Assembly (NCBI GenBank): GCA_024710405.1
Contig: JANJUV010000001.1
Coordinates: forward strand, 1 to 64,000
DNA from: Bacteroidales bacterium
GTDB taxonomy: Bacteria > Bacteroidota > Bacteroidia > Bacteroidales > F082
DNA: 64,000 nt
Reading direction: 5' to 3'
The first letter of the stretch is position 1, and each line of letters begins with the position of its first letter. The notes beneath the pieces were generated by a model, which made no database searches, was not told where the DNA came from, and was given only the letters and a program-made list of their open reading frames with translations. The position numbers were made by a program, and so were the translations under genes. Below, in pieces: positions 8,777 to 54,764 of this stretch.

Positions 8777-9364
8777 TTGAAAACAGATATAACAGAACGG
8801 CAACAAGAGATTATAAATGCTTCTCTTGAGTTAATTGCAGAAAGCGGTATACAATCTTTAACCATAAAAAACCTTGCGAAGAAAATCGGTTTCGCTGAGT
8901 CCGCACTATATCGTCATTACGAAAATAAAGTTCAAATTCTATTAGCAATTCTTGATTATTTCAAGCAAAACACGGAACATTTTTTTACAAATCAATTAAT
9001 ATCAGATACTAACGCGCTTCTTAAAATTGAAAATTTGTTTCAAAATCATTTCAAGAAGTTTACTACTTCACCATCGCTGGTTTCGGTAATTTTTTCGGAA
9101 GAGATATTTCGAAACGAGGTAGAGCTCACCGACAAAGTGAAAGAAATAATGAATAAAAATACAGCAAGTCTAAAAACCATTATTGAAACCGGCCAAAGAA
9201 AGGGAGAAATAAGGTCTGATATTGAAGCCGCCCATTTGTCTATAATGATTATGGGTTCATTAAGAATGTTTGTTAAGCAATGGCATATGTCCAATTATGA
9301 CTATAACTTGATTGAGAGAGGTTCAGCGTTCAGCAATTCGATCAAAATTTTACTTAATAAATAA
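8777..9364 (+). CDS. TetR/AcrR family transcriptional regulator
   Basis: A 195-residue repressor with an N-terminal TetR helix-turn-helix (about residues 5-52; SGIQSLTIKNLAKKIG then ESALYRHYENK) and an alpha-helical ligand domain with a conserved TetR-C-like half. The start codon is TTG at 8777; there is no in-frame ATG between the operator and the HTH. It opens a long operon for an RND efflux system and probably represses it through the palindrome at 8743-8760. The inducing ligand is not predictable from sequence. Confidence 0.92.
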   Translation: MKTDITERQQEIINASLELIAESGIQSLTIKNLAKKIGFAESALYRHYENKVQILLAILDYFKQNTEHFFTNQLISDTNALLKIENLFQNHFKKFTTSPSLVSVIFSEEIFRNEVELTDKVKEIMNKNTASLKTIIETGQRKGEIRSDIEAAHLSIMIMGSLRMFVKQWHMSNYDYNLIERGSAFSNSIKILLNK

Positions 9365-9726: not shown

Positions 9727-10128
9727 ATGAAATTGAACACGGTTTTTCGCTATGCCATTGCATTCATTATTATTGCTTTTGGGTTACTAACTCTGTTTTT
9801 AAGCAGTTCGGTAGTTTTTGATTTATTTGGCATCAGAGCTAAAGAGGGAAATTATGTGCTTTTTGTAGTTGTTGCAAATCTAATAAACAGCCTTCTATAC
9901 CTTCTGGCAGGGTATGGTATTATCCAAAAAAAGACTTGGACAACCAAAATTCTAAGCATTTCAGCCGGTTTACTCATAATAGCTTTTCTAGGGCTTTTTG
10001 TACACATTAATACCGGTGGTGTTTATGAGACTAAAACAATTGGAGCAATGATTTTCAGGATTTCCTTGACACTATTATTTGTAACAGTTTCTTTTCTGCT
10101 CAATAAAAGAATGAAAAATGAAAGATAA
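9727..10128 (+). CDS. Small four-helix membrane protein of unknown function
   Basis: A 133-residue inner-membrane protein with four predicted transmembrane segments (about residues 8-30, 42-64, 74-92 and 104-125). No known family motif is recognised. The C-terminal KKRMKNER-type basic tail and charge distribution suggest a cytoplasmic end. Its last codons overlap the start of the TolC-like gene by 11 nt, so translation of the two is probably coupled. Confidence 0.7.
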   Translation: MKLNTVFRYAIAFIIIAFGLLTLFLSSSVVFDLFGIRAKEGNYVLFVVVANLINSLLYLLAGYGIIQKKTWTTKILSISAGLLIIAFLGLFVHINTGGVYETKTIGAMIFRISLTLLFVTVSFLLNKRMKNER

Positions 10129-11500: not shown

Positions 11501-12574
11501 ATGAAAAAATCGATCATTTATATAGTTGTAGCATTGGCTTTAATAGCCATCACGGTATTTCAACTAAAGAAAAATAAGGAAATCACTGTAAACAGGGTTT
11601 ATCAATACGATAAAGAGCAGGCAATTAATGTACAAGCAATCACTCTGAAGCTTGAAAGTGTTCAAAACGATATTTCTTACACGGGAACTTTCGAACCCAA
11701 CAAAGAAACAAGAATCAGCGCGGATATTCAGGGGAAGATTAATTCGGTTTTGGTGGATGTTGGAAGCACGGTGCGAAAAGGTCAGGCCTTGGTTCAATTA
11801 GACAACTCTTTACTGAAACTACAATTACAAGCCATTGAAATTCAAATTGATGGATTGGAAGTGGATGTAAAACGCTACACCATACTTGTCGATGCCGATG
11901 CTATTCAAGGCGTTCAGCTGGAGAAGACCGAATTGGCTTTAAAATCGGCCAAAGTACAGAAGGCTACTTTAATGGAACAAATCAAAAAAACGACGATTAC
12001 AGCGCCTTTCAGCGGAATTGTTACCGCTAAACTAACCGAAGAAGGAGCCTTCGCAGCACCAGGTATTCCTTTACTCCAAATAACAGATATCTCAAGCCTG
12101 AAGTTTACCGTAAATGTTCCCGAACAGGACTTAAGTCAGTTCGAAACCAATCAAATCTATTCTCTTTCCGCAGATGCTTATCCGGAAACGGTGTTATCGG
12201 GTAAGGTGATCATGACAGGCAGTAAAGCCAATATGGGGAATAGTTTTCCTGTACAATTTTCGGTAAACAACACTGCCGATTTAAAAATCAAATCAGGAAT
12301 GTTTGGAAATGTACTTCCGAAAGCTACCGGGATGAAAAACGATGGGGAAGAAAAGTATATCATTATCCCGGCATCTGCTATCGTTGGAACAAACATTCAA
12401 CCACAGGTTTATCTGGTCAAAAATGGGAAAGCCATTCTTCAAAATATCACCACTTCAAACCGGTTTCAAAATAAAGTACAGGTTTCTAGTGGTTTAACCG
12501 AAGGCGATGTAATAATAACCAACGGGTTTATCAATCTTTTTGATGGCGCAAATGTTGTTTCAATTACGAATTAA
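11501..12574 (+). CDS. RND efflux periplasmic adaptor (HlyD/MFP family)
   Basis: A 357-residue membrane-fusion protein anchored by one N-terminal helix (about residues 4-21). The lipoyl half-motifs ISADIQGKINSVLVDVGSTVRKGQALVQLD and ITAPFSGIVTAKLTEEGAF flank an alpha-hairpin, followed by the beta-barrel and membrane-proximal domains. It joins the TolC channel to the RND pump. The stop codon TAA lies inside a 7-bp repeat array (12562-12582), and the next gene starts 11 nt later. Confidence 0.93.
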   Translation: MKKSIIYIVVALALIAITVFQLKKNKEITVNRVYQYDKEQAINVQAITLKLESVQNDISYTGTFEPNKETRISADIQGKINSVLVDVGSTVRKGQALVQLDNSLLKLQLQAIEIQIDGLEVDVKRYTILVDADAIQGVQLEKTELALKSAKVQKATLMEQIKKTTITAPFSGIVTAKLTEEGAFAAPGIPLLQITDISSLKFTVNVPEQDLSQFETNQIYSLSADAYPETVLSGKVIMTGSKANMGNSFPVQFSVNNTADLKIKSGMFGNVLPKATGMKNDGEEKYIIIPASAIVGTNIQPQVYLVKNGKAILQNITTSNRFQNKVQVSSGLTEGDVIITNGFINLFDGANVVSITN

Positions 12575-12582
12575 AAATTACG
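12562..12582. repeat. Heptamer array, left flank of four-helix-bundle cassette 1
   Basis: Three 7-bp units, AATTACG, AATTAAA and AATTACG. The array supplies the last codons and the stop of the adaptor gene. It is the exact inverse of the units in the right flank at 12934-12996. Confidence 0.85.
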
Positions 12583-12585
12583 AAA

Positions 12586-12945
12586 ATGAAAACTGATAAT
12601 ATAGTACAAGAGAAGTCATTTGCTTTTGCCATAAGAATTGTAAACTTCTACAAATTCCTGATAGCAGAAAAGAAAGAATATATTTTATCAAAGCAACTGC
12701 TAAGAAGCGGAATTTCAATTGGAGCGAATGTAGAAGAAGCAATTGGTGGTGTTTCTGGCAAGGACTTTTTGAATAAATTGGGAGTTGCATACAAAGATGC
12801 GAGAGAAAGTATCTATTGGCTTAAACTCTTACATGCCACAGATTATATCACAAAAAACGAATTTGAAAGCATGTTTACTGATGCCGAAGAGATTTGTAAA
12901 ATTCTCAGTAAAATTCAAATCACAACAAAAAACCGTAATTCGTAA
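12586..12945 (+). CDS. Four-helix-bundle protein (S23 / 23S rRNA intervening-sequence type)
   Basis: A 119-residue helical protein of the TIGR02436-like family first known from intervening sequences in 23S rRNA genes and related to the Avd accessory protein of diversity-generating retroelements. The conserved stretch QLLRSGISIGANVEEA (about 43-58) and the following YKDARESIYWLKLL are clear. Function is unknown. It interrupts an efflux operon between adaptor and pump, where no such component is expected, and is enclosed by inverted heptamer arrays; its stop codon lies in the right array. This suggests insertion as a cassette. No rRNA or reverse transcriptase is nearby. Confidence 0.88.
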   Translation: MKTDNIVQEKSFAFAIRIVNFYKFLIAEKKEYILSKQLLRSGISIGANVEEAIGGVSGKDFLNKLGVAYKDARESIYWLKLLHATDYITKNEFESMFTDAEEICKILSKIQITTKNRNS

Positions 12946-12996
12946 TTCGTAATTCATAATTCGCAATTCGTAATTCGTAATTCATAATTTTTAATT
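12934..12996. repeat. Heptamer array, right flank of four-helix-bundle cassette 1
   Basis: Nine consecutive 7-bp units: CGTAATT three times, CATAATT, CGCAATT, CGTAATT twice, CATAATT and TTTAATT. Each is the reverse complement of a unit or variant in the left flank. The array ends 7 bp before the ATG of the RND pump gene. Confidence 0.93.
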
Positions 12997-13003
12997 GAAA
13001 AAG

Positions 13004-16000
13004 ATGAACATTACAAAAATAGCAATCAATCGTCCATCGCTGATCATCGTTCTTTTCAGCGTATTCGCCTTGATGGGGATCATTGGATTTACAAACCTGG
13101 GGTATGAACTGTTGCCTGACTTTAACCAGCCGGTGGTTGTAATAAAAACATTGTACCCTGGTGCCGAACCCAATGAAGTGGAAACTTCGGTTTCCAGAAA
13201 AATAGAGGATGCCTTGTCGAATCTCGAAGGAGTCGATTACCTGGAAACCAAGTCGATGCCCAACGCTTCAGTTATTATTGCCAACCTGAAATACGGAACG
13301 GACTTGAACATCGCCATGCAGGATGCCCAGCGGTATATCGACAATATTAAAAAAGATCTTCCGGCAGACATTTTGAGTCCGGTGATGAGCAAGGTTTCGC
13401 CAAACGATTTGCCAATCATCTCGATCAGTGCAACAAGCAGCTTGCCTGCGACGGAATTTTATCAGAAAATGAAGGACGAATATCTGCCACAAATTCAACA
13501 ATTGAAAGGGGTAGCTGAAATTACAATGCTTGGTGGCGAAGAACGGGAAATTCAGGTGAAGGCCAATCAGGACAAACTGAAACTGTATAAAATATCGCTC
13601 TATCAGGTTGTTGAAGCCATTAACCGCTCTGGAATTGATTTGCCTGCCGGTAAAGCGCAAACCGATGAAGAGAGTAATTCAGTCAGGCTAACCGGAAAAT
13701 TCTCGACCGTAAACGACATCATGAATGTGCAGGTAGCCATGCCTGCGCCGGGAATGCCGGTCTATGTAAAAGATGTGGCAACTGTTATAGATGGTGTGAA
13801 AGAAGTAAGTTCCGTAAGCCGCTACAATGGAGTGAATGGAATAGGCCTTATGCTGAAAAAACAAGGTGATGCTAATGCAGTGGAAGTTTCAAAATTGGTC
13901 CATGCAAAACTCACCCAAATTGAAAACGCCAATACAAAATACGGGGTTAAATTTATTGTAGCAGATGATTCAACCGACATGACCATTGCGGCAGTAAATT
14001 CAGTAGTTTTTGATTTGATTTTAGCGGTAATCCTGGTTTCACTGGTTATGTTCCTGTTTTTAAGAAGCTACCGGAACTCCTTAATTGTTTTAGTCGCAAT
14101 CCCGACCTCATTAATCACCGCTTTTGCTGTGATGTGGCTGATGGGCTTCACCTTAAACCTGATGACTTTGCTGGCCATGTCGTTAATTATCGGAATCCTG
14201 GTAGATGATGCGATCGTCATCCTGGAAAACATTCAGCGACACCTCGATATGCGCAAAGACAAGGAAACTGCGGCATTGGAAGGGCGTATGGAAATAGGGT
14301 TTTCAGCCATTTCAATCACCCTGGTTGACGTGGTTGTATTCTTACCCATTCTGTTTTTGCAGGTTTTTGTGGCCGATATGCTGAAACAATTCTCAATCGT
14401 AGTAATAACATCAACACTTACCAGCTTATTGGTGGGTTTTACCCTGGTACCCTGGCTGGCTTCGCGAATAGGCAAAAAGGAAGATTTACAACCTACCAAC
14501 TTCGTGAACCGTTTTTTGCTGTGGTTTGAAAACCAGTTAACAATATTTATCAATTGGTACGGCCGTCAGTTGGAATGGGTGCTTAGCCATAAACTCATCT
14601 TTACAGGAATAGTTATTTTCCTTTTGGTAATGACAGGGGTGATGATGAAACAAGGTATTATCGGAAAAGAAATGATGTCGACCGGAGATCAGGGAAAGTT
14701 TCGTTTGAATTTGGAATATGATAAAACTACCACCGTTCAGGAGAACAATATCAGAACTCAAAAGGTAGAAAACTTTATCCTTCAGCAACCTGAAGTAGCC
14801 ACACTTTTCAGCAACGTTGCCGGACCAAGCACTGGAATCGGCAGTTTGGGGGTTGGCTCAGCCAATTTATCAGAATTTACCATTCAATTAAAGCCGGAAA
14901 AGGAGAGGGATATCAAAACTGAGGCGTTTATGAAATCGCTTCGCGAAGAGCTGAAAAAGCATTTTTCTGGAGTAAACTTTTCAATGGCCGTTCTGGGCTT
15001 ACTGCCCAAACAGGCGCCTATCAAAATAACCCTGAGCGGAAGCGATCTGGATTTGGTAATGAAAACCGGGGATAAACTGAAAGCGGCTATTGAGAAAATA
15101 CCGGGCGCCGATAATGTTCGTTTATCAGTAGAAGAAGGAAGCCCTGAATACAAAGTAATTCCTGACAAAGATAAGATGCAGCGGTTGGGATTAACAACTG
15201 CTTATGTCGGGTTAAATTTAAGGACTGCCTTCACCGGAAACGATGATGCCACGTTAACTGAAAATGGAACAGAATATCCGGTAAGGATATGGTTAGATGA
15301 TTTTGACCGGAAAAACTTTGAAGACGTACAGCGTATTTCCATCGTAAACCCAATGAACATTCCCATTGAAGTATCTCAATTTGCGGAAGTAAGACAGGAC
15401 AATTCGCCTTCGTTGCTCGAAAGATTGGACCGTCAACCGTCTGTAACCATTACTTCCGAATCGTTTGGCAGGCCATCGGGAACACTTGCTGATGAAGCAA
15501 TTGCCTTTCTGAAAACGCAGCCATTGCCCGAAGGGGTGAAATTAACCTGGGGGGCTGATATCAAAACACAGAATGAAAGTTTCGGCGCTTTGGGTTCGGT
15601 TCTTTTAATCTCATTTATACTGATTTATCTGATCATGGTAGCCCTTTATGATAGCTACATTTATCCGTTTGTGGCTCTTTTCGCAATTCCCGTGGCAGCA
15701 ATTGGTGCATTTTTAGCATTGAATTTATCATTAAACCACTTGACCCTTTTTGCACAACTTGGACTCATTATGCTTATGGGGCTGGTAACAAAAAATGCCA
15801 TCCTGATTGTGGATTTTACCAACCAGCTAAAAGCCCAGGGAAAACACTTTAAAGAGGCTTTGATCATTGCAGGCAAAGAACGGATGCGCCCTATTTTAAT
15901 GACCACGCTTGCCATGGCAATCGGTATGTTGCCCATTGCTTTGGCCCGGGGTACAGCCAGCGAATGGAAAAACGGCCTGGCATGGGTGATCATCGGTGGT

Positions 16001-16588
16001 TTGCTGTCGTCTATGATTTTGACGGTTTATTTAGTCCCGATGGTTTACTACGTTGTAGATCGTATTAAAGAGAAAATTGCAGACAGAAAGGGAAATCAAT
16101 TAAAAATTACGAATGACGAATTAAAAAAAAAATCGAGAATGAACAAAGTATTTAAAATTATAATGGTAGCCTCGGTATCGCTGATGTTATCATCATTTAG
16201 TATTCAAAAGCAGGAAACATGCTCATTAACAATTGATGTGAGTGAATTGCGAAATTCAAAAGGTACTGTACAATTCGCATTGTACAACAGAGAGGATGCA
16301 TTCCCCGATGAGCATTACAAAAAGTATTTCAAAAAACTTACCGGGGAAATAGTAAACGAGGCATCATCTGTAACATTTGAAAACCTGCCGGAAGGAAAAT
16401 ATGCGGTGAATATTTTGCACGATGAAAACAATGATGGGAAAATTGATAAAGGATTTATTAAACCAATAGAAGGTATAGGATTTTCAAATTTTAAAAAACT
16501 TGGCTTTTCAAACAGACCTTCATTTTCAAAAGCATCTTTTATTCTAAATAGCGACAAAGCGATGATGATTAAAATGATATACATGTAA
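13004..16588 (+). CDS. RND-family efflux pump read through into a DUF2141 domain
   Basis: One open frame of 1194 codons. Residues 1 to about 1030 are a full HAE-type RND proton antiporter, with the first helix after NITKIAINRPSLI, two large periplasmic domains and VDDAIVILEN (from about 400) carrying the paired proton-relay aspartates. Pumps of this class normally stop here. A 28-bp heptamer array at 16098-16125 follows without a stop, encoding LKITNDELK, and leads into M-N-K-V at 16139, a hydrophobic segment and a DUF2141 domain (VSELRNSKGTVQFALYN, LPEGKYAVNILHDENNDGKID). The ATG at 13004 is preferred to the TTG at 12995, which lies in the repeat. The DUF2141 part could also be made separately from 16139. 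Confidence 0.88.
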   Translation: MNITKIAINRPSLIIVLFSVFALMGIIGFTNLGYELLPDFNQPVVVIKTLYPGAEPNEVETSVSRKIEDALSNLEGVDYLETKSMPNASVIIANLKYGTDLNIAMQDAQRYIDNIKKDLPADILSPVMSKVSPNDLPIISISATSSLPATEFYQKMKDEYLPQIQQLKGVAEITMLGGEEREIQVKANQDKLKLYKISLYQVVEAINRSGIDLPAGKAQTDEESNSVRLTGKFSTVNDIMNVQVAMPAPGMPVYVKDVATVIDGVKEVSSVSRYNGVNGIGLMLKKQGDANAVEVSKLVHAKLTQIENANTKYGVKFIVADDSTDMTIAAVNSVVFDLILAVILVSLVMFLFLRSYRNSLIVLVAIPTSLITAFAVMWLMGFTLNLMTLLAMSLIIGILVDDAIVILENIQRHLDMRKDKETAALEGRMEIGFSAISITLVDVVVFLPILFLQVFVADMLKQFSIVVITSTLTSLLVGFTLVPWLASRIGKKEDLQPTNFVNRFLLWFENQLTIFINWYGRQLEWVLSHKLIFTGIVIFLLVMTGVMMKQGIIGKEMMSTGDQGKFRLNLEYDKTTTVQENNIRTQKVENFILQQPEVATLFSNVAGPSTGIGSLGVGSANLSEFTIQLKPEKERDIKTEAFMKSLREELKKHFSGVNFSMAVLGLLPKQAPIKITLSGSDLDLVMKTGDKLKAAIEKIPGADNVRLSVEEGSPEYKVIPDKDKMQRLGLTTAYVGLNLRTAFTGNDDATLTENGTEYPVRIWLDDFDRKNFEDVQRISIVNPMNIPIEVSQFAEVRQDNSPSLLERLDRQPSVTITSESFGRPSGTLADEAIAFLKTQPLPEGVKLTWGADIKTQNESFGALGSVLLISFILIYLIMVALYDSYIYPFVALFAIPVAAIGAFLALNLSLNHLTLFAQLGLIMLMGLVTKNAILIVDFTNQLKAQGKHFKEALIIAGKERMRPILMTTLAMAIGMLPIALARGTASEWKNGLAWVIIGGLLSSMILTVYLVPMVYYVVDRIKEKIADRKGNQLKITNDELKKKSRMNKVFKIIMVASVSLMLSSFSIQKQETCSLTIDVSELRNSKGTVQFALYNREDAFPDEHYKKYFKKLTGEIVNEASSVTFENLPEGKYAVNILHDENNDGKIDKGFIKPIEGIGFSNFKKLGFSNRPSFSKASFILNSDKAMMIKMIYM
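16098..16125. repeat. Solo heptamer array at the RND/DUF2141 junction
   Basis: Four 7-bp units, AATTAAA, AATTACG, AATGACG and AATTAAA, in the same polarity as the left flank of cassette 1 but with no four-helix-bundle gene. It reads in frame and joins two protein domains. Confidence 0.85.
16139..16588 (+). other. DUF2141 domain, possible separate gene with internal start
   Basis: From the ATG at 16139 a 149-residue product would begin with a signal peptide (VFKIIMVASVSLMLSSFSI) followed by a complete DUF2141 beta-sandwich domain. Family members are normally independent exported proteins of about this size. If translation instead runs through from the pump, the hydrophobic segment would act as a thirteenth membrane helix and place the domain in the periplasm. 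The sequence allows both. Confidence 0.6.
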
Positions 16589-51687: not shown

Positions 51688-53115
51688 CTAATTTATCTTG
51701 ATCAATCTGCTGGTAAGTGGATTCAACAGCAATGAGGTCATCATTCCGATGGTACCCGCCTCGGGAGACGACATCCCGTAAAGATAAAGACCGAGACAAA
51801 CAGCTAACCCGCCAAGTCCGGAAATCATTGCGCCGGCTTTGGTTACTTTATCGGAAAATAGTCCCCATACGAAAGGCCCTAGGAAAAACGACCCTAAGGC
51901 GCCCCATGAAATACCCAGTATCTCGACTATCACATCCAGTTCAACAGCAGCAAAAAGAACAGCCAGCAACACAAAGAAAGCACTCATCACACGCATCATT
52001 ACAGTGATTTGACCATCGGGCATATCCTTACGCACAAAACCCTTCCAGAAATCCCTGGTAAAAGATGAACTTGAAATAAGCACCAGTGATGCCAGTGTTG
52101 ACATGGAAGCCGAAAGAATCAGCAATAAAATGACGACTGAAAGCGATGAAGGAATAACATTGGTGAGCAATTCGGGCATAAGCTGATCAAAATTGGGCTT
52201 ACCTGAAACAAATATCTGCGGTGCGTTATCCGGATTAATAAAAACCCTTGTCGTGGAACCGATAAAATAGGCTACTCCACCTATCAGAATGGCAAAAACA
52301 GTTGATGCAACGGCTCCTGTTTTCACCGATTTCCTGTCACGAATGGCATAAAACTTCTGCACCAACTGAGGCATTCCAAATGGTGCCACACTGGTAAGAA
52401 AAACAAGGGCAAACAGCGGCCACCATCCCGGAGGGCCAACCGAAGATACAAGCCTGGGCTCAATGCTGCGCAGAGAATCGACAATATTGTCCATACCATC
52501 ACCTTTTTCAAGTGTGAAATAAAATAGCAGCAGCACGCTCACAGTCATTATTATACCAAAAATTGTATCGATTATGGCCATGGATTTATAGCCCCCCAGA
52601 ACAATATAGGTTGCTGTGAAGATTCCCATACCAATGAGCACATAAGCATAGGGTAGTCCAAGAGAAATCTCAAAAAGATAAGACAAACCCATAAACACCG
52701 CGGCAGAATATGGAATCAGAAAAATAAAAATAACGATAGCCGAAAAAAGCTTCAACATGGATGAATCATACCGCTTTTCTAAAAACTCGCTCATCGTTCC
52801 GATATCATATTTCACCGAAACCTGCTTGATCCGCCATCCGAGCAAAACCCAAACTACATAAACCCCGACGATTGCATTGAACAAAGCAATCCAAAGTCCC
52901 GACAACCCAAATCCCCAGCCTATCTTTCCTGCGAAACCGATAAACAATACAGCTGAAAAATATGCTGTACCATAGCTGAATGCCGACATCCATGCTCCGA
53001 CATTGCCACCCCCAAGCAGAAAATCCCTGGAAGACTTAGTCCTCCTCAACCCCATAAAACCCACGAGTAGAATAACTATTGCATAAAGTGCAATAACAAT
53101 CAGTTTTGCTGTCAT
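51688..53115 (-). CDS. Sodium:solute symporter (SSS family)
   Basis: A 475-residue symporter with about 13 helices, started at ATG 53115. Motifs include RRTKSSRDFLLGGGNVGAWMSAFSYGTAYFSAVLFIGFAGKIGWGFG and SVAPFGMPQLVQKFYAIRDRKSVKTGAV, the latter close to proline/pantothenate-type symporters. SSASMSTLASLVLISSSSFTRDFWK is the usual sodium-site helix. Proline is a plausible substrate but not proven. It precedes a porin gene by 6 nt. Confidence 0.93.
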   Translation of the reverse strand: MTAKLIVIALYAIVILLVGFMGLRRTKSSRDFLLGGGNVGAWMSAFSYGTAYFSAVLFIGFAGKIGWGFGLSGLWIALFNAIVGVYVVWVLLGWRIKQVSVKYDIGTMSEFLEKRYDSSMLKLFSAIVIFIFLIPYSAAVFMGLSYLFEISLGLPYAYVLIGMGIFTATYIVLGGYKSMAIIDTIFGIIMTVSVLLLFYFTLEKGDGMDNIVDSLRSIEPRLVSSVGPPGWWPLFALVFLTSVAPFGMPQLVQKFYAIRDRKSVKTGAVASTVFAILIGGVAYFIGSTTRVFINPDNAPQIFVSGKPNFDQLMPELLTNVIPSSLSVVILLLILSASMSTLASLVLISSSSFTRDFWKGFVRKDMPDGQITVMMRVMSAFFVLLAVLFAAVELDVIVEILGISWGALGSFFLGPFVWGLFSDKVTKAGAMISGLGGLAVCLGLYLYGMSSPEAGTIGMMTSLLLNPLTSRLIKIN

Positions 53116-53216
53116 ACATTTGGTTTTGGCCGGTAAAATTAGCACTTAATCATTTAAGACAGGCAGACATAAGAAATAACGAGGATATTTAATCACTAAT
53201 TCCGCTCAGCAGACAT

Positions 53217-53268
53217 TAGGCGTAAGGAAAAAGGCGTAAGGAAAAAGGCGTTAAGCAGAAGGCGATAG
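53217..53268. repeat. Heptamer array, left flank of four-helix-bundle cassette 2
   Basis: About seven 7-bp units: AGGCGTA, AGGAAAA, AGGCGTA, AGGAAAA, AGGCGTT, AAGCAGA and AGGCGAT. AAGGCGT is the reverse complement of the ACGCCTT unit in the right flank. Confidence 0.85.
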
Positions 53269-53429
53269 GGACTTAGTACAAGACATTTGGTCAATAGTGC
53301 ATGGCTCACAACCAAAAGAGTAAGAGGGTCTGTTTAAGTAACTATGCTAACAATAATTCTTTAATTCTTGTTATTATCAATGTCATAAGCTTTCGATTGC
53401 CGACTAACAGAAAGCAATAGAACTCTTTA
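53269..53429. other. AT-rich spacer inside cassette 2
   Basis: No open frame or hairpin supported; lies between the left heptamer array and the 3' end of the four-helix-bundle gene. Confidence 0.5.
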
Positions 53430-53804
53430 TCAAGTTATTCTCTTATTCTTTCCTTTCATTTCTAAAGATTTAATCAACCCACGAAGTATTTTTGAGATTT
53501 CATTGGCATTTTCAATCAGTTTTGAGGCTTTATCAGGTTTAAGATAACCTAAACGTATCGAAAGGTATAGCATAGATTTAACCTCACTGCAAGATCCAAT
53601 TGCCATATAAATAAAACGTGCAAAATCAGCATCTGTCCTCCGGTCGAAACCTTCTGCAATATTGTTTGAAATGGAAACAGCCGCTCGGCAAATCTGATCT
53701 TTAAAACCATAATCCTTAACTGCATTAAAAACGAAATAGATATTGACTGTCAAATCTTGTGCCTTTTGCCAACCAATAACATCTTCAAACTTCTGAATAG
53801 CCAT
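53430..53804 (-). CDS. Four-helix-bundle protein (S23 / 23S rRNA intervening-sequence type)
   Basis: A 124-residue helical protein of the same superfamily as the gene at 12586-12945 but a different subgroup. The diagnostic stretch QICRAAVSISNNIAEGFDRR (about 38-57) and FARFIYMAIGSCSEVKSMLYLSIRLGYL are clear; the N-terminus KFEDVIGWQKAQDL is typical of the larger subgroup. Function is unknown. It stands alone between a symporter gene and the sigma-factor operon, enclosed by inverted heptamer arrays. The basic C-terminus (KGKNKRIT) could bind nucleic acid. Confidence 0.9.
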   Translation of the reverse strand: MAIQKFEDVIGWQKAQDLTVNIYFVFNAVKDYGFKDQICRAAVSISNNIAEGFDRRTDADFARFIYMAIGSCSEVKSMLYLSIRLGYLKPDKASKLIENANEISKILRGLIKSLEMKGKNKRIT

Positions 53805-53853
53805 ACCTTATTTTTTTCAATTATTGATCTAATCCACTTATATTTATGCATTT

Positions 53854-53957
53854 ACGCCTTACGACTTACGCCTTACGACTTACGACTTACGACTCACGCC
53901 TTACGACTCACGCTCTAAAACTCACGCCTTACGACTCACGCCTTACGACTCACGGCT
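53854..53957. repeat. Heptamer array, right flank of four-helix-bundle cassette 2
   Basis: About fifteen 7-bp units dominated by ACGCCTT, ACGACTT and ACGACTC, with single degenerate units such as ACGCTCT and AAAACTC. The shared pentamer TTACG (or TCACG) recurs at every unit boundary. Confidence 0.95.
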
Positions 53958-54029: not shown

Positions 54030-54764
54030 TCATAACGGACTGACCGAACTTGCCCCTGAAGTATTTTGTTGTATCTGCTTTGGAGCACCTTTGTATCGGA
54101 TGCCCGAAGCACCTGAAGCATCAACCACAATGCTTTCGGACGCCCAAACTTCAACCAGCGAAGCACCACTGGCGTCAACTACAGCACTGCCTGATTCAAG
54201 CAAATCAGCATAAACCTTTGAAGCACCTGAGGCATCTACTTTTAGTTTGTTCGCATTTCCTTTCAGATTAGCATTACTGGCACCACTCATGTCAATTACA
54301 AGATAATCAGCCTTTAAATCAAGGCGGAATTCGGATGCCCCGCTCCCCTCCAACTCCAGATGTTCAAAGGACATATTATTTGTGCCATATAACCTGACAG
54401 CACCGCTGATGTCGATGGATTCAAGCTTTTTAAAATTCACACTTACCTTCATGGTTCCGACATTTCGAACTGGCTCTTTCAATCTTATTCTAAGTACACC
54501 ATCAGATACAATACTTTCAATCAATGGCAATATATTGTCGTCTGCTGTAACTACTAAAGATTCTGTTTGGGATTGCGTGAGTTCGACCTCAATGCCACCA
54601 CTTACTTTTAAAGCAATGAATGATCTGATACTTCTCTCCTCGGTAGCAGTTTTTTCACTACCCTCAATGGGACTCAATTCAAGGTTGCATGCGCTTCCGA
54701 TGTGCAGCATAAACATGAGCAACAGAAGAAGTGCCATTTGTGATTGTTTGACTATTCGTTTCAT
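54030..54764 (-). CDS. GIN-domain (DUF2807) lipoprotein
   Basis: A 244-residue exported protein with a lipobox-like HIGSAC (Cys26). The body is a right-handed beta-helix of the putative auto-transporter adhesin head GIN type, with the repeated DASGAS phrase at about residues 184, 199 and 216 (SGAS six or more times). It is the last gene of the ECF sigma operon, 57 nt after the previous stop. Role as adhesin or stress-sensing surface protein is inferred from the family name. Confidence 0.88.
   Translation of the reverse strand: MKRIVKQSQMALLLLLMFMLHIGSACNLELSPIEGSEKTATEERSIRSFIALKVSGGIEVELTQSQTESLVVTADDNILPLIESIVSDGVLRIRLKEPVRNVGTMKVSVNFKKLESIDISGAVRLYGTNNMSFEHLELEGSGASEFRLDLKADYLVIDMSGASNANLKGNANKLKVDASGASKVYADLLESGSAVVDASGASLVEVWASESIVVDASGASGIRYKGAPKQIQQNTSGASSVSPL

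Follow-up and report, generated by a model that had tools for sequence, protein, structure and literature searches.

Two cassettes built on a common plan are present in the window, by which we mean the whole 64,000-nucleotide stretch analysed here (contig JANJUV010000001.1 of a Bacteroidales bacterium). Each contains a single S23 gene enclosed by tandem arrays of short words, with the words on one side inverted relative to those on the other. We propose that the cassettes are mobile elements resembling the intervening sequences (IVSs) of 23S rRNA, with heptamer-array ends that the S23 protein would recognise, bind and mobilise; we give this reading a probability of roughly 0.55.

The S23/23S_rRNA_IVP gene of cassette 2 (53,430-53,804, minus strand) encodes a four-helix-bundle protein of 124 aa that matches TIGR02436 (E=1e-32) and PF05635 (E=1.9e-32; 112.1 bits against a curated cut-off of 33.8, over residues 7-108 of 124). 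Passages of PMC3936711 give GxxRxxxSxxxNxxE as the S23 family motif; its R40, S44, N48 and E51 are invariant in alignment A2, and the G position is occupied by Q37. The solved relatives, PDB entries 2GSC and 2RLD, each contain five chains. S23 is the sole ORF of the cassette and PF05635 its sole Pfam match, leaving it without an HUH/Y1 transposase. In S23 sense, the 5' array (53,851-53,957, minus strand; TRF, repeat family D1) consists of GTGAGTCGTAAGGC units, in which 7-bp words form 14-bp pairs; on the plus strand, TRF reports it as ACGCCTTACGACTC at 53,854-53,954 (14-bp unit, 7.2 copies, score 153). The 3' array (53,211-53,254, minus strand; TRF) reads AACGCCTTTTTCCTTACGCC in S23 sense and AGGCGTAAGGAAAA on the plus strand at 53,218-53,251 (14-bp unit of 2x7, 2.4 copies). 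The 3' and 5' arrays form an inverted pair (I1, with 53,851-53,894) that is 70% complementary over 44 nt, with 596 nt between its members, so the original prediction of an S23 gene between inverted heptamer arrays holds at this locus. Taken alone, the inversion is modest (score 26, with the null at 25 for 95% and 30.7 for 99%), and it is secured by the population of S23 loci, which shows the same pairing. About 180 bp separate the S23 stop codon from the downstream array, longer than usual. Both neighbouring ORFs lie on the S23 strand and were named by reading their sequence: a putative sodium/solute symporter-like gene downstream (51,688-53,145), with a DNA match to its orthologue in the relative G001, and a putative adhesin-type lipoprotein gene, DUF2807-like, upstream (54,030-54,764). 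No clean empty site for cassette 2 was found, G001 having the symporter gene without the cassette and a different upstream gene.

Cassette 1 has the same build, as had been claimed. Its S23 gene (12,586-12,945, plus strand; 119 aa; PF05635, E=1.7e-25) is preceded by a 5' array (AATTACGAATTAAAAATTACGAA, with words ATTACGAA before the gene; 12,561-12,585, plus strand) that overlaps the stop codon of an upstream RND membrane-fusion gene. The inverted 3' array of TTCGTAA/TTCATAA units, with words TTCGTAAT after the gene, spans 12,934-12,996 on the plus strand (TRF: 12,934-12,989, period 7, 8 copies). Comparison with empty sites in five relatives (G045, G195, G016, G048 and G066) defines the insertion interval as 12,556-13,003 on the plus strand. 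In these relatives the same two RND-pump genes are present at 87-94% identity, and the 448 bp of this interval correspond to about 21 bp that contain neither S23 nor any array. The insertion is present in G077, where the 3' side has two or three heptamers against about nine in the window. Words of the ATTACGA type are common to cassette 1 and its relatives L074 and L076, which lie at unrelated sites. The RND efflux locus as a whole (window 11,501-16,588) has counterparts of 87-94% identity in other genera of the family and no DNA-level match in two congeners searched, a distribution that suggests horizontal transfer of the RND operon.

Within the window, period-7 runs are confined to the surroundings of the two S23 genes and to 953-1,210, where no S23 is found. 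The latter run belongs to a region at 1-1,210, also without an S23 gene, in which unrelated short tandem repeats are densely packed: a 20-bp unit (1-127), AACCAGA heptamers (960-1,095), GACTAAGA 8-mers and AACAAGA heptamers. The genome to which the window belongs has seven S23 genes, five of them with 6-7-bp arrays on both sides and a different word each; the two most divergent have no arrays. S23 is found in 35 of 41 related genomes (this one included), with up to 15 copies. In 1.45 Mb around 94 S23 ORFs of these relatives, 6.6% of the sequence in the 300-bp S23 flanks belongs to period-7 arrays, compared with 0.29% elsewhere, a 23-fold difference by bases; for period-8 arrays the figures are 3.4% and 0.15%. 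Coverage peaks less than 100 bp from S23 on either side. In a wider set, a strict period-7 run was detected in 127 of 376 S23 flanks and in 10 of 354 control segments 1 kb away, and a strict period-8 run in 52 flanks and 2 control segments; periods 7 and 8 predominate among the flank arrays. The predicted 7-bp periodicity beside S23 genes is therefore real. Solo arrays are also found elsewhere, yet equal abundance of arrays at a distance from S23 is excluded. About one third of the S23 genes (32 of 94), including the two most divergent of the window's own genome, have no strict array within 300 bp.

Some loci in these genomes are more complicated. At L109 (G000:C2:1-20000), heptamer arrays with several words (CTGGTTT, GCCCTTC, GATCAGTAA) are crowded together, and a putative RhuM-like gene, identified by eye, lies between arrays at 8,820-8,902 and 9,924-10,076. 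Tandem S23 genes with arrays between them occur at L016, L021, L060 and L059, together with remnants of the S23 C-terminus ahead of arrays; this arrangement suggests repeated insertion beside existing S23 copies.

Inversion was assessed by aligning each upstream flank with the reverse complement of the downstream flank, with mismatched loci as the null. Among 87 loci in relatives, 56 exceed the 95% null (about 4 expected) and 40 the 99% null. Pairing in direct orientation exceeds these levels at 18 and 16 of the same loci, while control small ORFs show inverted pairing above the 99% null in 3 of 161 cases. Among 76 named loci spread over many phyla, 47 likewise show inverted pairing above the 95% null, and the original proposal of a real element class, drawn from two examples, is thereby upheld. 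Most of the bacterial phyla sampled show the pattern; it was seen in Clostridia, Delta-, Gamma- and Alphaproteobacteria, Acidobacteria, Planctomycetes, Verrucomicrobia, Chloroflexi and CPR, and also in Cyanobacteria (word GGGTGTA in Nodularia). Since the word varies from locus to locus, the arrays are not one repeat family. S23 is the gene enclosed by 25 of 40 inverted array pairs; other cargo was considered and rejected, as no other gene recurs among the 40. A location inside rRNA was likewise rejected, with an rRNA match in 0 of 20 named loci and both cassettes lying between protein genes.

Two further features of the original prediction did not survive. It had assigned opposite array polarities to cassettes 1 and 2, an apparent contrast that arose because the words were anchored on TTACG. 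On the S23 strand, G outnumbers C in the 5' arm at 92 of 97 loci; given the inversion of the arms, the G-rich words run towards the ORF from either side (92:5). The TTACG pentamer itself had been taken as a shared signal; it was dropped because most S23 array words lack it. The S23 proteins of the two cassettes are only 25% identical, and the shared pentamer is probably a coincidence.

Judged by comparison of genome sequences, the S23 gene and its arrays are gained and lost jointly, in the manner of a mobile element. Besides the empty sites of cassette 1, the site upstream of dtd in genus g14 exists in three states among species: S23 with arrays (L159-L161); inverted arrays alone, folded as a hairpin around a short loop (L162, L163, L172 and L182); and an empty site, where the genes lie 4-8 bp apart (L165, L170 and L186 are examples). 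An unrelated palindrome, GGGCCCTTCGACAGGCTCAGGGACCC, occupies the same gap in L164, L166, L168, L176, L181 and others, so the gap appears to be a hot spot for small elements. No clear target-site duplication was seen at the cassette 1 or dtd sites, where the empty-site flanks, about 75-94% identical, have diverged too far for a certain verdict, and no transposition event was seen within one strain.

The insertions are strongly oriented. By simple ORF calls, 81 of 89 S23 genes lie in same-strand gaps, compared with 481 of 767 other genes (p=1e-8). Between two same-strand genes, S23 is in sense with both in 80 of 81 cases (other genes, 425 to 56; p=0.002), and the named loci divide 50 to 6 between sense and antisense. 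This orientation fits an element that needs read-through transcription, and it fits the habit of 23S IVSs too. S23 is under purifying selection, with a median dN/dS of about 0.07 in 27 pairs.

Covariation of the heptamer with S23 subgroup, which had been proposed as a check on the original prediction, was found in a loose form. Among non-syntenic pairs of at least 50% identity, word similarity follows S23 relatedness more closely than in any of 2000 permutations (p=5e-4, with kinship not modelled). A word strictly set by S23 was rejected, since the word differs in many pairs of more than 65% identity. With an alignment led by the cassette 2 S23, about 85,000 species genomes were scanned, and the best 80 of the matches listed were used. 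The best two among the matches listed, L229 (65% identity) and L230 (66%), lie beside rfbA and, in Maribacter, beside another gene set, respectively; both have AGTCGTAAGT arrays, corresponding to the cassette 2 word GTCGTAA. The record of L229 is titled Azovibrio and may represent a mis-binned contig. At orthologous sites the arms are more complementary within a locus than across loci (p=9e-5). Between L155 and L156/L157, which share an orthologous site, the word has changed on both sides together, a change for which independent insertion at the same site is a possible explanation.

Tandem heptamers are already known from several bacteria. Those of Xanthomonas have the word GGGAATC and include 70 convergent pairs in X. 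campestris, those of Nostoc have GGGGATT (Rehm et al. 2015, PMC4692102), and those of Beggiatoaceae have TAACTGA (PMC4679880). A term search of the main texts of both papers returned no mention of S23. In a 59-genome family holding GGGAATC arrays, taken to be Xanthomonadaceae from its repeat and locus pattern, S23 is present in 20 genomes. Five S23 loci with GGGAATC lie at an accB-accC site (gene names by our own reading), and two elsewhere have GGGACTC. GGGAATC arrays occur in all five genomes whose S23 carries GGGAATC and in 14 of 54 others (p=0.002); GGGACTC arrays occur in both genomes whose S23 carries GGGACTC and in 8 of 57 others (p=0.03). These counts, which reach tens in most genomes, may include the S23 locus itself. 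The presence of S23 alone does not predict GGGAATC arrays in this set (p=0.11). In two Xanthomonadaceae-like genomes, G594 and G612, no S23 was detected and 56-67 GGGACTC double units are present; either S23 has been lost or the arrays persist without it.

Inverted copies without the protein are found both as dispersed GGGAATC/GGGACTC hairpins in Xanthomonadaceae and as the array hairpins at the dtd site. Most solo hairpins have loops that are related neither to the interiors of S23 elements nor to one another. A single MITE family was rejected for the Xanthomonadaceae hairpins because the loops differ, and only L342 among them shares a subterminal stretch, GTTCAAGC, with an S23 element. Solo arrays are common elsewhere, including in genomes without S23. 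Solo ATTATGA/ATTACGA arrays were considered as hidden S23 elements and rejected: S23 adjoins 0 of 20 such sites, and most are in a single orientation. The association of S23 with the repeats may explain some of the orphan heptamer repeats of bacteria.

Several known systems resemble the S23 cassettes in part. The 23S rRNA IVSs of Leptospira and Coxiella likewise have one small ORF, for a PF05635 protein, between inverted ends. They are sporadically present or absent, are transcribed in the sense of the host gene and exist in ORF-less forms. Their terminal inverted repeats are able to form a stem, as are those of S23 cassettes (the fold of cassette 2 being no better than shuffles). IVSs, however, lie inside an rRNA gene, whereas S23 cassettes lie between protein genes of operons, end in tandem 7/8-bp arrays with a locus-specific word and occur in many copies per genome. 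The RAYT-REPIN/REP system also combines one conserved protein gene with inverted short repeats and many protein-less copies carrying the same word. It differs in that S23 lacks the HUH/Y1 transposase domain, in that REP sequences are single palindromes rather than tandem heptamers, and in that several divergent S23 families with different words share one genome. The orphan heptamers (GGGAATC, GGGGATT and TAACTGA) are tandem 7-bp intergenic words, often in convergent pairs; the main texts of the two papers on them leave them unlinked to S23, whereas in Xanthomonadaceae the S23 genes at accB-accC were seen here to lie between GGGAATC arrays. Avd of diversity-generating retroelements (DGRs) is an accessory four-helix-bundle pentamer of the same Pfam family, named as PF05635 in a DGR context in passages of PMC10053308, and is comparable to the five-chain S23 relatives 2GSC and 2RLD. 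S23 is instead a standalone gene, and no reverse transcriptase or template/variable repeat was seen by eye among the neighbouring ORFs around cassette 2. S23 genes within cas operons have been described in PMC3936711, whose relevant passages do not mention arrays. Neither the S23 protein family nor the inverted ends of IVS elements are new (PMC4990558); a search of an open-access library found no paper joining S23 to heptamer arrays.

Under the proposed reading, each cassette would be one copy of an element built as tandem 7/8-bp words, an S23 ORF and the same words inverted, with the arrays as its ends, arriving and leaving with the gene. The element would insert, or survive, in sense orientation in short gaps between co-transcribed genes, and S23 would be expressed by read-through. 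An S23 pentamer may bind the tandem words, G-rich strand inward, as DNA or RNA, and may join both ends for copying or mobilisation; such joining would keep the left and right arrays alike as the word drifts. The original suggestion that the protein recognises or propagates the arrays agrees with the observations, which bear on it indirectly. As S23 has no recognisable nuclease or transposase domain, a host enzyme would probably supply the catalysis. Hairpins of arrays that lack S23 would stand to the element as REPINs stand to RAYTs, either as relics or as non-autonomous derivatives.

The second-ranked explanation, which we consider unlikely, operates on RNA. The arrays would pair in polycistronic mRNA, RNase III would cut the resulting stem around the S23 ORF, and the words would serve only to keep the stem alive under slippage. 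The Coxiella IVS offers a precedent in its 28-bp stem of terminal inverted repeats, which is cut by RNase III (PMC4990558). The shared protein family and inverted ends, the strict sense orientation within operons, the retention of left-right complementarity as words change, and the RNA fold of cassette 1, which pairs its two ends (z = -3.35), are all as this explanation would have them. Mismatches between the arms are not: G-U wobbles of the sense-RNA type number 100 and those of the antisense type 146 (p = 0.004), an asymmetry in the wrong direction, for which selection for a sense-RNA stem was rejected. Cassette 2 folds no better than its shuffles (z = -0.5), intergenic gaps require no processing, and a stem does not require a 7-bp word. 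The wobble result and the unremarkable fold of cassette 2 are the reasons for ranking the mobile element first and RNA processing second.

It is less probable still that S23 is a stationary autoregulatory gene, binding its own words in both untranslated regions (5' and 3') in a TRAP-like manner to control itself and its operon neighbours, and spreading by ordinary horizontal transfer. Covariation of word and clade, arrays only tens of bp from the ORF (medians of 34 and 14 bp), the position inside operons and purifying selection on S23 would all suit such a regulator. A stationary gene is harder to reconcile with sites found empty or holding an array-only hairpin, with up to 16 copies per genome in unrelated operons, with the many arrays that lack S23 and with neighbours among which no conserved function was noticed. 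Passive microsatellites, in which polymerase slippage makes intergenic heptamer runs and S23 merely tolerates or prefers such places, are already disfavoured and the least credible of the explanations. Solo arrays are frequent in the same genomes and unit number differs between copies of one insertion, as slippage would produce; yet slippage does not account for locus-specific inversion on both sides of S23, the fixed G-rich polarity (92:5), empty sites without arrays or the absence of any other recurrently enclosed gene.

Extending the mobile element reading, we tentatively suggest, at somewhat less than even odds, a pan-bacterial class of mobile elements whose ends follow a new design: terminal inverted arrays of a 7/8-bp word that drifts yet stays matched between sides, recognised by a pentameric S23 that is not itself a known transposase. 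Such elements would be the source of part of the orphan heptamers. If this is true, renewal of the word on both sides would entail templated copying from one end to the other. No function is known for the widespread S23/IVP proteins, and earlier descriptions treat the heptameric repeats of bacteria as orphans. Over many phyla the two belong together, as a unit that is present or absent whole; S23 thereby gains a candidate substrate, its own word, and the repeats gain a candidate maker. S23 cassettes, which lie outside rRNA, are numerous and can be compared with clean empty sites, also give a new opening on the old question of how IVSs move.
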